This document shows positions 2,833 through 21,797 of a DNA stretch of 21,797 nt, piece by piece; position 1 is the first letter of the stretch; the number at the start of each line of letters is the position of its first letter. Under the pieces are notes generated by a model, which saw nothing but the letters and a program-made list of their open reading frames with translations, had not been told where the DNA came from and ran no database searches. The translations under genes were made by a program, and so were the position numbers. The DNA is from a virus, in the IMG/VR virus record IMGVR_UViG_3300050821_001157, positions 1 to 21,797 of that record; one strand, written 5' to 3'.

Positions 2833-3081
2833 ATGAACAATCGGCTTCTTATCGGTTCAATCGTGGCGCTGCTTGCGGCGTTGCTAGTCGTGGGCGTGAT
2901 TCTTGTGGTCAATACGTGGCCGCCGCATAAACAAACGGACGAAGAACGGCGGTTGGAGAGCTATCAAAAGGCCAGCGACGCAGCGAGCAAAGCGGCCACG
3001 GATGCTTATCGGGGTTCCGCTGAACAAGCCAAGTTCGAGGAAGGCGTTGAAGCGGAGCGGCGGCGACAGCAGGGGCGTTAA
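2833..3081 (+). CDS. Small single-pass membrane protein on the opposite strand
   Basis: An 82-residue protein with a hydrophobic N-terminal segment at about residues 5-27 (LLIGSIVALLAALLVVGVIL), then a strongly charged Lys/Glu/Arg/Ala-rich tail likely to be helical or coiled coil. It fills the gap between the divergent tail gene starting at 2791 and the convergent tape measure gene ending at 3090, and is the only sensible frame there. One membrane anchor followed by a coiled coil is the layout of an inner-membrane spanin or of a small superinfection or lysis accessory protein, but at 82 residues it is short for a spanin and no neighbouring lysozyme or holin is seen. The Shine-Dalgarno sequence is weak. 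Function unknown. Confidence 0.65.
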   Translation: MNNRLLIGSIVALLAALLVVGVILVVNTWPPHKQTDEERRLESYQKASDAASKAATDAYRGSAEQAKFEEGVEAERRRQQGR

Positions 3082-3089
3082 GTCCCATC

Positions 3090-4373
3090 TCATCTATTCG
3101 CGGCCACGACCGCCCCCGCTGGCTTGTTCGCAACGATCGCCATCTTGGCATCCATTGCCTTAAGCAAGTCCCGTTGTTCTTTATCTAATTGCTGCCATTC
3201 GCGGTCGAACGGATTCGGTTCGAGGATCGCTGCTTGAATCTGAGCGCCAATGCTGCCGATGTCGGCCGCGCCACCGAGATGTGTCGTCTCCTGAGCAAAC
3301 GCCGATCGTTTGTCCAAATCTTTCCGGCGAGCGATCGTATCGGCGGACGCTTCTCTAAGTTCCGCCAAGCTCATCCCGCCGAACCCTCGTTGTGGTTTCG
3401 CAAGCGAGTCTTTTAGGTCTGCCACAATATCGGTTGTCGATTGACCACCTCGAAAACCACCCGCGATCATGCCCCCAAGTCGGCCTACCGCCGCGCCGCC
3501 TGCGCCTAGAAGTGATTGGCCTGTTTTGGCCAATCCGCCCATGCCTGCTTTTGCTCCAGCGCCGAGTGTCGATTCCAGGTCGGCAATGTTTGCCGCCTCC
3601 TGTTCCTTCGCGCGAGCTTCGGCCCATTCAGCGCGATTAGCGGCCGAGCGTCGAGCCATTGTGATTTGACCGTTGACCGTACTTTCACCAGCGCCAGCCC
3701 TTCCACTTGCCCAAGGTGTCGCAATATGGCCTGCTAATCCCTCAAAAAATCCGTGCGTCTCGCCGATGCCGGCCCCGCGCGCCGCCATCGCGTTCGCTCT
3801 TTCGGCGTCGGTCATCGTCGCTTTGCCGGCCGCCTCGCGTTCTTTGGCCGCGTCCGCCCGCGCTTTTTCCGCTTCTGCTTGTCGCGTTTGTATTCTCTCC
3901 ATAAGCGCGCCACCAACGGTCGGTGGATTTAAAGAAGCCTCAAGTTGCTCTGTTTGCGTTTTTGCCGCTGGCCCTTTAAGAGATTCGACGGCCGCCTTAT
4001 TGGCTGCATCAACGGCCTCTTTATATCCCTGAATGCGCTTTGTGGCGGCCTCAGCAGCTTCGGCTTGTTTCCCGAATCCCGTAGCACTCTCTAACAGAGC
4101 CTCCGTGAGTTTTTCTGTTATCATCGTGCCGACAGCGAACACTCCTCCAGCAAGGAACATCTTGCCCATGTGGCCGGCAAGGTGGGCCAAAGTATGTTCG
4201 ATTCCAGCAGTCCCGTGCTTCCCAAAGAGGAATCGCTCCATTGCGCCGCCTTCCTGTTCCGGCTCTAAATGGCGCTTTACCTCATGTTTAACACGCTCAA
4301 CTTCCGGCCCGACCTTCTCGGCGCCCTTCTGATATATCTCGACAAACGCACCGGCGATTCTCTGATCTGCCAT
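3090..4373 (-). CDS. Putative tape measure protein (short)
   Basis: A 427-residue, Ala/Gly/Glu/Lys-rich, mostly helical protein immediately downstream of the tail chaperone and HNH genes, the canonical place for the tail-length tape measure. A hydrophobic stretch at about residues 69-86 (including MFLAGGVFAVGTM) may act as the membrane-interacting part. Long helical charged stretches cover about 100-200, and a Gly/Ala-rich flexible segment lies around 265-320. By the general rule of about 0.15 nm of tail per residue, the tail would be near 60 nm, short for a siphovirus. The ATG overlaps the HNH stop as TAATG. The call rests on position and composition; there is no specific motif. Confidence 0.6.
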   Translation of the reverse strand: MADQRIAGAFVEIYQKGAEKVGPEVERVKHEVKRHLEPEQEGGAMERFLFGKHGTAGIEHTLAHLAGHMGKMFLAGGVFAVGTMITEKLTEALLESATGFGKQAEAAEAATKRIQGYKEAVDAANKAAVESLKGPAAKTQTEQLEASLNPPTVGGALMERIQTRQAEAEKARADAAKEREAAGKATMTDAERANAMAARGAGIGETHGFFEGLAGHIATPWASGRAGAGESTVNGQITMARRSAANRAEWAEARAKEQEAANIADLESTLGAGAKAGMGGLAKTGQSLLGAGGAAVGRLGGMIAGGFRGGQSTTDIVADLKDSLAKPQRGFGGMSLAELREASADTIARRKDLDKRSAFAQETTHLGGAADIGSIGAQIQAAILEPNPFDREWQQLDKEQRDLLKAMDAKMAIVANKPAGAVVAANR

Positions 4374-4990
4374 TAGTTAGTCCTTTTTGCCCATCGCTTG
4401 CCGAATCCCGTAGGAATGTTCAACGCTTCTTCTGTAGACCATCCCAAGACCGCGATACGTTGCCAAATCGTGTAGTGTTTGATTCCAGTAATCTCAGACC
4501 ATTCCATAATGCAGCGCGTTATTCCGCCCAACGTGAGCAGGTGATTACGTCTGAGGTTGCGGCCTTGTTCTTTTGCGGTCGCCCAACGGCAATTTGAGGG
4601 TTCGTAATTGCCATCGTTGTTGATGCGGTCGATTGAATGCCGTGGGGAGGGACGCGGCCCCATATCGTCATAAAAGGCATCGAATGAGTCGCGCCACGAA
4701 TCGCACATAACAATTCCACGGCCGCCGTGATTGTGAAAGCCGCGAACATTGGGATTGTAGCAGCGTGCCTTCATAGCATTCCAAACTGCGTATTCACGCG
4801 ACTTTCGATGTGGTTTGCGTCTACAAACTTGGCATCCCTTGGTTCTTCCAGAATGCAAAATGCTTCCGACTTGTGCCTTTATCGTTCCACACTTGCATTT
4901 GCAAAGCCATCCTCTCTTCGCTTTGCCAAGAACAGTCCAGTTTCCGAATTTGCAATTGGTGAAATCGTGGGGTATCCTATTCGCAGACAT
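4373..4990 (-). CDS. HNH homing-type endonuclease
   Basis: A 205-residue free-standing HNH endonuclease of the phage type. Residues 27-56 form a Cys-rich zinc ribbon (CKCKCG at 30-35 and CQVC at 53-56). The HNH core follows: a Cys/His segment at 77-99 (RCYNPNVRGFHNHGGRGI) and the catalytic stretch SIDRINNDGNYEPSNCRWAT at 119-138. The C-terminal part (154-192) looks like a helix-turn-helix that ends in GWSTEEAL, as in modular DNA-binding tails of homing enzymes. It nicks or cuts DNA and can spread its own gene between phages; some phage HNH proteins instead assist packaging. It has its own strong Shine-Dalgarno sequence and a preceding hairpin, unlike its coupled neighbours, which supports later insertion. 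Its stop overlaps the tape measure ATG. Confidence 0.9.
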   Translation of the reverse strand: MSANRIPHDFTNCKFGNWTVLGKAKRGWLCKCKCGTIKAQVGSILHSGRTKGCQVCRRKPHRKSREYAVWNAMKARCYNPNVRGFHNHGGRGIVMCDSWRDSFDAFYDDMGPRPSPRHSIDRINNDGNYEPSNCRWATAKEQGRNLRRNHLLTLGGITRCIMEWSEITGIKHYTIWQRIAVLGWSTEEALNIPTGFGKRWAKRTN

Positions 4991-4994
4991 GAGC

Positions 4995-5004
4995 CACCTC
5001 CTTA
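4995..5004 (-). promoter_or_regulatory. Strong Shine-Dalgarno sequence of the HNH gene
   Basis: The minus strand reads TAAGGAGGTG with GGAGG six bases before the ATG at 4990. It is the best match to the anti-Shine-Dalgarno sequence in the window and fixes this start. Neighbouring genes mostly depend on stop-start overlap instead. Confidence 0.8.
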
Positions 5005-5021
5005 CAGGTTGCTTGTGTTTA

Positions 5022-5050
5022 GAGAGCCAAAGCTACACACTTTGGCTCTC
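5022..5050. other. Perfect 11-bp hairpin between chaperone and HNH genes
   Basis: GAGAGCCAAAG (5022-5032) and CTTTGGCTCTC (5040-5050) are perfect inverted repeats around a 7-base loop. On the minus strand no T-run follows (TAAACAC), so it is not a normal terminator for the operon. On the plus strand the following GTATTTTAACCGTTTTT is only loosely U-rich. It may weaken transcription into HNH, protect mRNA ends, or be a remnant or target of the mobile gene. Confidence 0.6.
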
Positions 5051-5077
5051 GTATTTTAACCGTTTTTATCGTTTACG

Positions 5078-5769
5078 TCAGCCATTTCCCCACCTCTCCA
5101 TCGCGTATTGAGTCCACCGCCGTCGTTCGCCCTTGCGCTTAGCACTGAACGCCTTCTGATCCGAATCGCTCATCGCCACCCGGTCGCCGCTATCCGCGAG
5201 TTCGGAGTAATAGACGACGACCTGCCCGAGCGTCATGCGGCCGATGTCGTCGGCTGAGAATCCGAACTCTTTGCCGAGCTTGCGGAAGATTTTTCGCCAG
5301 GGCCAGGGGCGTCGTTCTCCGCTCCCGGCCCAGGGGAGTTTCCCAAGGGGGTCTCGGGAACAGCATCCTTGAGCCGCTGGGCTTCCAAGCGGTCGCGCTC
5401 GTCGAGATGGGCCAGAATCGTCTCGGCTTGCTCAAGTGTCATGTCCGGCGTGCCGTGTTTCATCCCCAGCCACCAGCTCCAAGCTCGCCCCTCGTGCGTC
5501 AAGGCGATCCACTCCATGACCTCCTCGTGCGGTACGCAATGCCCGCGGAGAGCCTTGACGAACGCTGTAGCGGCGACGTGGTTTTTCGTCTCCTGGTCCT
5601 GGCAGGCCGCCAGAATCTTTGGCAAGACCTCTTCCAATCGCAGCCGAGATTCCAAGAGATGAGCGCTCATCGCGGCGTAGTCTTTGACGCGGAGCGCGGT
5701 CAGAGAGAAGGTTTGTCCTTCGACCGTGAAGGATTTCGACGGCGGCAGCAAGTCGAGAAGGTTATCCAT
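5078..5769 (-). CDS. Tail assembly chaperone, long -1 frameshift product (GT-like fusion)
   Basis: Predicted fusion of 230 residues: 160 codons from the ATG at 5769 to the AAA ending at 5290, then a -1 shift into a 70-residue frame ending with TGA at 5078-5080. The second frame has no suitable ATG of its own but reads as real protein (IFRKLGKEFGFSADDIGRMT and on, ending RRRWTQYAMERWGNG). It is helical and charged like the T part of lambda-type G/GT chaperones. In this system the rarer long form contacts tube protein while G and GT coat the tape measure during tail assembly. Gene position between tube protein and tape measure fits exactly. An HNH gene now separates it from the tape measure. 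Confidence 0.75.
5233..5769 (-). CDS. Tail assembly chaperone, short form (G-like)
   Basis: The unshifted product has 178 residues (starts MDNLLDLLPPSKSFTVEGQ). A short beta-like start is followed by a helical body (about residues 30-145) and a low-complexity Pro/Gly/Ser/Asp tail. The frame is open upstream to 5853, but that part is Arg-rich and overlaps the tube gene. The ATG at 5769 lies in the gap after the tube stop with a modest AGAGA ten bases upstream. The Ser-rich end after the A5 run looks like filler, while the -1 frame after the same run looks conserved, as is usual for the G form in frameshifting tail genes. Confidence 0.75.
   Translation of the reverse strand: MDNLLDLLPPSKSFTVEGQTFSLTALRVKDYAAMSAHLLESRLRLEEVLPKILAACQDQETKNHVAATAFVKALRGHCVPHEEVMEWIALTHEGRAWSWWLGMKHGTPDMTLEQAETILAHLDERDRLEAQRLKDAVPETPLGNSPGPGAENDAPGPGEKSSASSAKSSDSQPTTSAA
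5290..5296 (-). promoter_or_regulatory. Candidate -1 ribosomal frameshift site
   Basis: On the minus strand the zero frame reads GGC GAA AAA TCT, giving an A5 run across the GAA and AAA codons. Slipping back one base keeps AAA pairing in the A site; the P-site change (GAA to CGA) is imperfect, so the heptamer C-GAA-AAA is not a textbook X-XXY-YYZ. The -1 frame is also open upstream of the site, so the exact slip point is not fixed by stops alone. No clear stimulatory pseudoknot was worked out. Confidence 0.55.
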
Positions 5770-5788: not shown

Positions 5789-6175
5789 TCATGGCAGCGA
5801 AGGTTCGACCCAGGCCCCATCCGTGTCGAAAGAAAACTCGGAACCAATCGCATCCCCGGTGTCCATGTCGGTCATCACCTGACAGGACGTAACGAGCGCC
5901 GGAACGCTGTAGAAGTGCGTCGAGTCGAGATAGAGCTTGAGCGTGACCGCCGAGCCTTCGGCGATCGTATTAGCAGCCCCAACATCGAACTTCATCGAGA
6001 TCGTACCGCTGCCCTCTTTGACGCCGCCGACGCTGCGCTTGAAGCCTCCGGAGGCCGACGTACCGAAACGATTCGAGTTGACCCGCTTGGTAAACGTCCA
6101 GCGGAGGACTTCGCCGAGCGTTGTCGAAGCAATCTTAACGTCACCGCCCTTGCCGGATTCGAGTGTCGCGGTCAT
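5789..6175 (-). CDS. Putative major tail tube protein
   Basis: A 128-residue beta-rich protein just upstream of the frameshifted chaperone, the usual place of the tail tube gene. Alternating strands, a Gly/Ser/Lys loop near residues 42-58 and a C-terminal part with short strands (SEFSFDTDGAWVEP) fit a compact beta-barrel tube subunit. The ATG at 6175 is preceded by AGGAG eight bases upstream, one of the few clear Shine-Dalgarno sequences here, which suits a product needed in many copies. No signature motif proves the assignment; position and fold-like composition carry it. Confidence 0.6.
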   Translation of the reverse strand: MTATLESGKGGDVKIASTTLGEVLRWTFTKRVNSNRFGTSASGGFKRSVGGVKEGSGTISMKFDVGAANTIAEGSAVTLKLYLDSTHFYSVPALVTSCQVMTDMDTGDAIGSEFSFDTDGAWVEPSLP

Positions 6176-6186
6176 CGCAGGAACTC

Positions 6187-6705
6187 CTAAGCGCCGATCA
6201 AAACGACGTTGTAAGTGACGGAATTTGAACCAGGGACGTTGATTCGGAGTGTCTTGTGCGTCGAGTCAACCGTCCACGGATTCACAAAATTCGAGAGGAT
6301 CAAATTACTATTCGGGCCAATCTGGGCAACGGAAGTCGTAACGCTGTTCGCCCAAGCCGAGAAGGGATTCGACGCGGTGCAGAGCAAATGCAGCTTGTCG
6401 CCGCTGACGGTGTTCGTGTTCTGAATCCAAATCATGCTGAGTTGCGTCAGTGCAACCGTGACCGTACTGCCGAAAATGGATTCGGTCAGACCGGTCTGCA
6501 TGTCGAGATCGTTATTCGCCGTGCTGGCCGTCGTGTATTGATTGCCGTAGATTTGATGGGCTTGATTCGCCGCGCTGCCATCCGCCAGCGCCAGCAGAAA
6601 TTGAATCGAATTGCCGTCGATGCAGTTTGTGCTCGGCAATCCGAGCGGCTGGGTATTAGTCCAGTTGATCGTGTTCTTGATCGTGGCTGATAGCACGGCG
6701 GCCAT
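6187..6705 (-). CDS. Beta-rich phage virion protein
   Basis: A 172-residue protein between the tail terminator and the putative tube protein. It is rich in Thr, Asn, Ser and hydrophobic residues, with predicted strands throughout. It ends in a pattern I associate with phage structural proteins: a GPNSNLILSNF segment, then DSTHKTLRINV and SVTYNVVLIGA. It could be an alternative tail tube subunit or a tail decoration protein. The ATG overlaps the stop of the preceding gene as TAATG. Exact role unknown. Confidence 0.65.
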   Translation of the reverse strand: MAAVLSATIKNTINWTNTQPLGLPSTNCIDGNSIQFLLALADGSAANQAHQIYGNQYTTASTANNDLDMQTGLTESIFGSTVTVALTQLSMIWIQNTNTVSGDKLHLLCTASNPFSAWANSVTTSVAQIGPNSNLILSNFVNPWTVDSTHKTLRINVPGSNSVTYNVVLIGA

Positions 6706-7136
6706 TAGACGAGCACCCTATCGGGAAGTAAGTCGATCAAGACGTTGAACGTCCGGGCAATCTGCCAAACGAGCGTGTCGGAATCCTGCGTATCGGCCCG
6801 CTCGTTGCATTTGATGTCCAGCACTCGACCCCGATCGAAGCGGAAATCCCGCCGGTTGAATTGGTCGCGAATCACTGCGTCGATCTCGACGGCCTTGTCA
6901 TAGCTGTCGTGCCAGGTCGAGACCTTCAACTGCTCTCGGTAAACCTGCCGGCCGCTGGAGGTCCGCTGCACGTCCGATTCGCTTTCGACCATGATGCTGA
7001 CGTATGGGCGCGTGATCGGATTGTTGTTCTCGTCTTTGAGCGGCGGCGAACCGCTATAGACGCGATCGGCCGGCACGAGCGCCGTGAGCGTACCGTTTGA
7101 GGACCAGAATTGATGGATGGCGGCCAAGGCGCTCAT
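6705..7136 (-). CDS. Tail terminator / tail completion protein (DUF3168-like)
   Basis: A 143-residue protein of the size and layout of lambda gpU / DUF3168 tail completion proteins: an N-terminal helix (SALAAIHQFWSSNGTLTALV), a short strand with PYVSIMVESES (44-54), a strand with REQLKVSTWH, a helix (DKAVEIDAVIRDQF), and closing strands (WQIARTFNVLID). Such proteins form a ring that ends tail polymerisation and joins the tail to the connector. It lies just after the HK97-gp10-like gene and a small helical gene, and before the tube genes, as expected. The ATG overlaps the preceding stop as ATGA. Confidence 0.7.
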   Translation of the reverse strand: MSALAAIHQFWSSNGTLTALVPADRVYSGSPPLKDENNNPITRPYVSIMVESESDVQRTSSGRQVYREQLKVSTWHDSYDKAVEIDAVIRDQFNRRDFRFDRGRVLDIKCNERADTQDSDTLVWQIARTFNVLIDLLPDRVLV

Positions 7137-20372: not shown

Positions 20373-20572
20373 TGATTCTCCAGTCGTTTGGCCGCCAGCC
20401 GATCAAGCTCCCGCGCATTCCGCACCAACTCCAACGTCAACGGATGATCCGTCATCCGTGCCATCTTCTCCGGCGTCAGCTCGCTAAGCAGCTTACCAAA
20501 TGATGCCGCGACTCTCGTAATCGCCGCTTCAAGTTTTGGCGTGATCCCCAGGAATGATTCTGCTTCTCTCAT
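20369..20572 (-). CDS. Small helical protein between terminase and nuclease
   Basis: A 67-residue, highly helical, charged protein (MREAESFLGITPKLEAAITR ... LVRNARELDRLAAKRLENQ). It is coupled at both ends by ATGA overlaps, so it is certainly translated with its neighbours. It has no zinc site, membrane segment or known motif. The location in the packaging block suggests an accessory packaging role, but that is only context. Confidence 0.65.
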   Translation of the reverse strand: MREAESFLGITPKLEAAITRVAASFGKLLSELTPEKMARMTDHPLTLELVRNARELDRLAAKRLENQ

Positions 20573-21797
20573 CGGTACTCCAGCGGCACTTGCGGCACGC
20601 GGCCGACAGGTTCGAATCCGTCTCCAACTTCCTGCATCAGCCGAATCGCTTGCTCTAAGGCGTCGGGGCCGTCGTCGTGCGTTCCTAGCGGAAACTCTTT
20701 CAACTGCTCGACCAGCATTCGCGTATCGGGATCATCATGGAAGTGCAACAGCCCCTCTTTGAGCCACGGCGCTAGCCGCCAAATGCGAATCTCTTTGCGA
20801 ATCCCGCACGTTGACAAGCCGCCAAACCGCTCTGGAAACGGCACTTCACCTCGCGACATCCGTTCTTCCAACAGCGGCAGCAGTAGTTCCTGGTAGAAGT
20901 CAGACTCGATCGAGAGTGCCGTCGGCCGGAAGTCCAGCATGTGCTGAATGGCGTCATCGAGAATCTGCGGCGTCGGTCGGCGGCGAATATCGGCTTGTAC
21001 GTACAAATGCTGTCCGTCCGCCGCGAGTCGGATGAAAGCCGAATAATCCGAGTGATCGGTACGCCCAAGACTCGGATCGAGCGACACGACGCGCGGCGAT
21101 AGCTCTTCTGGAAAGTCACCGTCCCACCAAAAGCAGCCCGCGCCCGGCGAATCATTGATACCCCTGAAATAATGCTCTGGAAAGGCTGCCGTTCCTTGTT
21201 GAATTGGCTCTTGCTGATAAAGCGCATGCCACCAGTAACCTTCTGTAGTCCGTTTGATTTCCTTGAAATCATCGCTCCATCGTTCCGGCCAGAGTACGCC
21301 CCCTCTTGATCGCCCAAGGGGATCATTTTCCTTGGCCTCGAACGGCAGCGTAATAATGCGCGCCTCCGGGTACATCTTCTTTAATCGGGCCGTGAGATCG
21401 TCCTGATGCCAACGGTGCATAATCGAGACAATCCACGCGCCCGGCTCAAGCCGCCGGAGGCCGTTGGATTTCAGCCGTTCCCAAAGGTTGTCCCGCTCTT
21501 TCTGGCTGAATGCCTTTTTGTGATCCTTGATCGGATCATCGAGAATCAAACCATTCAGGCGTTTACCCATAATGGCGCCGTCGATTCCTAAAGCGTGCAT
21601 CCCGCCGCGCCTGCCGACGATGTTCCACCGCTTTGCTGCCGATGAGTCGTCTCGCACTTGCACGCCGAACAACTCGCCGTATTCAGTCAGACAGTCACGG
21701 GCCGCCCGGCCGTACTTGGCCGCCTGATCGCCTTCGTGAGTAATGTACGCAATCGTGTGGTCTGGAAACGAACCCTCGTACCACGACGGGAACCAAT
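20569..21797 (-). CDS. Terminase large subunit, C-terminal 408 residues (5' part outside the window)
   Basis: The packaging motor ATPase and nuclease. The frame is open to the right edge; the first full codon starts at 21795 and reads WFPSWYEGSFPDHTIAYITH. The Walker A loop therefore lies outside the window. The visible part has a Walker-B-like LNGLILDDPIKD, then the RNase-H-like nuclease with VSLDPSLGRTDHSDYSAF (first Asp), ALSIESDFYQELLLPLL (Glu or Asp) and GTHDDGPDALEQAIRLM (last Asp), in the order of TerL nucleases. A TTG at 21672 is not a real start, since terminase sequence runs through it. No small terminase gene is visible. Its stop overlaps the next ATG. Confidence 0.92.
   Translation of the reverse strand, partial: WFPSWYEGSFPDHTIAYITHEGDQAAKYGRAARDCLTEYGELFGVQVRDDSSAAKRWNIVGRRGGMHALGIDGAIMGKRLNGLILDDPIKDHKKAFSQKERDNLWERLKSNGLRRLEPGAWIVSIMHRWHQDDLTARLKKMYPEARIITLPFEAKENDPLGRSRGGVLWPERWSDDFKEIKRTTEGYWWHALYQQEPIQQGTAAFPEHYFRGINDSPGAGCFWWDGDFPEELSPRVVSLDPSLGRTDHSDYSAFIRLAADGQHLYVQADIRRRPTPQILDDAIQHMLDFRPTALSIESDFYQELLLPLLEERMSRGEVPFPERFGGLSTCGIRKEIRIWRLAPWLKEGLLHFHDDPDTRMLVEQLKEFPLGTHDDGPDALEQAIRLMQEVGDGFEPVGRVPQVPLEYR

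Follow-up and report, generated by a model that had tools for sequence, protein, structure and literature searches.

Evidence for a lambda G/GT-type tail assembly chaperone with a probable -1 programmed frameshift at G_GGA_AAC in an uncultured virus fragment

Introduction

The locus studied here raises the question of whether two overlapping frames in the tail region of a virus fragment are expressed as a short and a long form of one tail assembly chaperone, and on which bases a ribosome passing from one frame to the other would slip. The window, by which we mean the whole stretch of DNA analysed, is a fragment of 21,797 bases from IMG/VR whose structural genes lie on the minus strand. A sequence-only reading had proposed that a G/GT-type chaperone is made through a -1 programmed frameshift, with slippage at a non-canonical site, C-GAA-AAA, in a run of five A's. 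The frame architecture, two relatives, the gene order, a slippery heptamer and a predicted hairpin support the first part of this proposal, and positions 5769-5078 very probably encode a lambda G/GT-type tail assembly chaperone with a -1 programmed frameshift, which would take place at G_GGA_AAC. The model used is that of lambda, in which G has the tape measure protein as its binding partner and the T part of GT serves to recruit the tail tube protein (PMC5009743; PMC4493119).

Results and Discussion

Along the minus strand, the window carries a terminase-like gene (20569-21795) with tblastn matches to phage terminases, a portal gene (PF05136, E 3e-19), a capsid gene (PF25209, E 2e-13) and a tail terminator gene (6705-7136; PF11367, E 3.7e-08; phrog_78, E 4e-4). 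The G-like gene, a putative zero-frame tail assembly chaperone of 178 aa (5233-5769, minus strand), runs from ATG 5769 to the stop TGA 5235-5233, as had been read before. It lies in the minus-strand order tail-tube-like gene, G/GT, HNH gene and probable tape measure gene, so that the lambda-like placement claimed earlier holds for the order, with the tail terminator confirmed by Pfam, and is less firm for the two neighbours. The gene directly upstream of G (5789-6175, minus strand, 128 aa) is a probable tail tube gene: tblastn linked it weakly (E 0.1) to the annotated tail tube protein of Roseobacter phage CRP-406, and its place agrees with the gene order in that phage. The probable tape measure protein (3090-4373, minus strand, 427 aa) was assigned by its position and by a marginal alignment to TMP_N (PF24164, E 0.11, below the cut-off), and the start of its gene is homologous in a related contig, L001. 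Between GT and the tape measure gene lies the HNH endonuclease gene (4373-4990, minus strand; phrog_374, E 2e-57; phrog_3377, E 4e-54).

On the same strand, no stop interrupts the -1 frame between a TGA starting at 5434 and the TGA at 5080-5078, and the fusion of G with this frame (GT, 5769-5078) was computed to be 230 aa long, which is the length foreseen for the long product. A scan of all zero-frame positions found a sole in-frame X_XXY_YYZ heptamer in G, namely G_GGA_AAC at 5344-5338 (minus strand), with the zero-frame codons GGA (5343-5341) and AAC (5340-5338). It is located inside the frame overlap, upstream of the A5 run, which is indeed present at 5294-5290, and of the stretch 5078-5298 to which the shift had been assigned; a non-canonical shift site would call for an overlap without any heptamer of this form. 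From the heptamer the -1 reading begins GKLPWAGSGERRPWPWRKIFRKLGKEFGFSADDIGRMTLGQVVVYY... and is free of stops, giving a T-like domain (5078-5344, minus strand) that ends at the TGA 5080-5078. The extension claimed earlier was correct in its end at 5078, but not in its length, because the slip most probably occurs upstream at 5344-5338, so that about 87 residues rather than 70 would be coded in the -1 frame.

To judge how often such a site is met, we counted in-frame heptamers of the class X_XXA_AAN or X_XXT_TTN, and the result showed 1 in 4,655 codons of the other large genes of the window, or about 0.014 expected in the overlap; in a weaker control, about 19% of synonymous shuffles of G's own codons gave the overlap a heptamer. 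The same heptamer, G_GGA_AAC, has been reported for g-t of the haloarchaeal virus HCTV-1 (PMC5009743), and the slip site of lambda and TP901-1, G_GGA_AAG (PMC7618472; PMC4493119), differs from it in the last base.

Downstream of the heptamer, a GC-rich hairpin is predicted at 5294-5337 (minus strand), with an 8-bp main stem (5331-5324 with 5307-5300), a 3-bp upper stem and an 8-nt loop. The main stem begins 6 nt after the heptamer, within the usual spacer of 5-9 nt between heptamer and stimulator (PMC7618472). The predicted fold of the 50 nt following the heptamer has an energy of -27.7 kcal/mol, lower than that of about 99.9% of the 50-nt windows on the minus strand and of 99.3% of GC-matched windows. 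Taken alone, this fold is suggestive and no proof of a stimulator, because the dinucleotide shuffles gave z-scores of -1.4 (68 nt, modest) and -2.8 (105 nt); it also comes without covariation support, since its sequence is identical in the window and in the only two relatives found. A candidate pseudoknot, CTCCC/GGGAG with GGGCC/GGCCC, was spotted by eye in a region identical in the three sequences, and an Rfam search of the window gave no match.

The relatives are two IMG/VR contigs, L001 and L002, from other metagenomes, so that the comparison covers three sequences including the window; no further relatives were found in the genome contigs scanned. Their G/GT regions are 87-88% identical over the best segment and their G proteins 90-93% identical, and G diverges by 8-12% among the three phages. 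Both relatives have G_GGA_AAC unchanged and retain the G stop, and in neither is the -1 extension lost or interrupted before its own stop, which is kept as well. Two further contigs, L012 and L013, were considered as relatives and rejected, as the 11-residue GSGERRPWPWR that they share is a chance match that lies antisense to unrelated genes.

The substitutions themselves showed a change of coding frame. Before the slip site they fall mostly on zero-frame third positions (34/45, 36/50 and 26/33 for the three pairs), and after the G stop mostly on -1-frame third positions (13/14, 15/16 and 11/13, or 39/43 as the pairwise total), which points to protein-level selection on both frames in the relatives, with the third-position bias moving from the zero to the -1 frame. 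From the A5 run to the G stop the changes are about equal in the two frames, and this stretch therefore cannot separate them. In addition, an 85-nt block (5274-5358, minus strand), which spans the heptamer, the hairpin and the start of the doubly coded stretch, has no substitution in the window, L001 or L002. An invariant run of this length was obtained in 2 of 20,000 permutations of the variable columns and in 3 of 20,000 when whole codons were shuffled; with about 32% of third positions variable in G, the probability is ~2e-5 for 28 unchanged codons and ~0.004 for 14. Double coding together with an RNA signal predicts this pattern of frame switch and invariant block.

The same block bears on where the shift would take place. 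A non-canonical shift at the A5 run (C-GAA-AAA, 5296-5290), possibly by P-site-only slippage on A_AAA, would draw on a run that lies inside the overlap and is shared by all three phages, and the annotated phage frameshifts in the PRFect motif survey include some with non-canonical motifs, 'five' among them (PMC10274946). We nevertheless consider it quite unlikely, since a canonical site is available upstream, re-pairing of the P-site tRNA from GAA to CGA would be poor, and the run sits at the 3' foot of the predicted hairpin and not before one. Such a slip would also leave unexplained both the 43 nt from the heptamer to the A5 run, which are free of silent changes, and the codons just upstream (p ~0.004 for the 14 codons and 2e-5 for the 28). 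The slip site is thus most probably G_GGA_AAC at 5344-5338, a canonical heptamer lying in the invariant block and followed by a hairpin after a spacer of usual length, and the non-canonical slip at C-GAA-AAA is very probably wrong. The two sites predict different peptides: LPWAGSGER is expected only from the upstream slip, while a slip at the A5 run would give a zero-frame peptide through ...NSPGPGAENDAPGPGEK, followed by IFR.

Another way to use the -1 frame would be to express it with no fusion at all. The earlier statement that this frame lacks its own start does not hold strictly, as it carries an ATG (5236-5234) that overlaps the G stop as ATGA in all three phages, and termination-reinitiation at this overlap would yield a separate product of just 52 residues. 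The third-position signature after the G stop is compatible with either mode. This explanation ranks marginally below a slip at the A5 run and is likewise improbable: an AGGAGG-like sequence is absent ahead of the ATG, RKIFRKLGKEFG ahead of it is fully conserved in the -1 frame, and the heptamer, the hairpin and the 85-nt block, which lie about 40-120 nt upstream, would go unexplained. An indel error in sequencing or assembly can also create two overlapping same-strand frames from one ordinary gene, but the frame layout, stops and heptamer are alike in three independent metagenome contigs, and with the relatives refuting it in practice this origin deserves hardly any weight.

The frames, the heptamer, the predicted hairpin, the conservation and the change of coding frame are all read from the sequence; for the frameshift at G_GGA_AAC, slippage itself, its frequency and the chaperone function are inferred as follows. 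Most ribosomes would stay in the zero frame and produce G (178 aa). The GC-rich hairpin, lying about 6 bases beyond G_GGA_AAC (5344-5338), would stall a smaller share of them, which would move back by one base on this heptamer and continue in the -1 frame as far as 5078, producing GT (230 aa). If the lambda model applies, G would coat the tape measure protein, the T part of GT would recruit the tail tube subunits, and the G:GT ratio would be set by the slip frequency.

G, T and GT had no significant match, and none to a chaperone or T-domain family, in PHROGs, Pfam, NCBIfam or PDB, so that the profile comparison of the extension with T domains suggested in the sequence-only reading returned no family match. 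Similarly, tblastn of GT and T against 50,697 phage records yielded nothing beyond a meaningless match at E 6, and profile comparison of G and T with the CRP-406 proteins found no similarity. The AlphaFold models were poor (pLDDT 48 and 52), and Foldseek fold searches with these low-confidence models were empty. One match of T, to phrog_3033 (E 0.1), was treated as chance, because the relatives are without it and the family also matches the Synechococcus and archaeal controls. Since no chaperone family matches, the class was assigned from gene order, architecture and the recoding signal.

Among known systems, the closest in layout is lambda G/T (gpG/gpGT), which is alike in its position between tail tube and tape measure, the -1 direction, a near-identical heptamer and the production of G and an extended GT. 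In contrast to lambda, the window has a heptamer ending in C, a strong predicted downstream hairpin, an HNH gene between GT and the tape measure gene, and G/GT proteins without a chaperone-family match. The g-t genes of HCTV-1, an archaeal virus, are likened here by the identical heptamer and the same gene pair alone (PMC5009743). Roseobacter phage CRP-406 (PV211008.1) has the same gene order, namely terminator, annotated tail tube, hypothetical gene and tape measure, with a chaperone-like gene, placed before the tape measure, that carries A_AAA_AAC and continues in an open -1 frame; it differs from the window in its heptamer, which is placed right at the stop, and shows no significant G or T protein similarity. 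Its tail region works as a positive control for the G/GT reading.

Some details of CRP-406 may be recorded separately. Its hypothetical gene (L008 5392-5897) matches the tail assembly chaperone family phrog_344 (E 3e-4) and carries no frameshift annotation. The A_AAA_AAC is at L008 5727-5733, and the -1 frame matches the tail family phrog_337 (E 5e-6).

As judged from the features compared above, G/GT is a sequence-divergent addition to the already known lambda G/GT class, and its predicted shift is canonical and ordinary. That it represents a chaperone family without detectable relation to described ones, known so far from three uncultured phages, with a shift that relies on a hairpin of unusual strength and perhaps uses the A5 run as an additional site, is an outside chance. 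What is gained is the removal of one claimed non-canonical frameshift site and the confirmation of an otherwise well-described phage feature. As a sequence-orphan tail chaperone, G/GT would be missed by homology-based annotation, as no family matches, and it comes to light through gene order combined with an in-frame heptamer and conservation in relatives.

The junction downstream of GT differs between the window and its relatives. L001 and L002 both lack the HNH gene at this point, and their GT stop overlaps the start of the tape measure gene (ATGGCTGA). The stretch inserted in the window (4373-5075, minus strand) lies exactly at this junction: ATGGCTGAC is kept at the GT end, and after it come, in turn, a stub frame of 9 residues, a hairpin of 12 bp and the HNH gene with a strong ribosome-binding sequence ahead of it; a second tape measure start, ATGGCAGATCAG, then overlaps the HNH stop. 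The overlapped start ATGGCTGAC is therefore found, in slightly different form, on both sides of the insert, and GT and the tape measure gene are both complete as a consequence. In this arrangement the inserted HNH gene resembles a free-standing homing-type element. The 12-bp hairpin (GAGAGCCAAAG...CTTTGGCTCTC; 5050-5022, minus strand) stands just upstream of the strong ribosome-binding sequence of the HNH gene, with a z-score of -4.4 for a 96-nt stretch.

Finally, a small plus-strand frame (2833-3081), opposite the tail genes, has an N-terminal membrane segment and weakly matches a family of Rz-like spanins (E 0.023); it may encode a lysis or membrane protein or be a chance frame.
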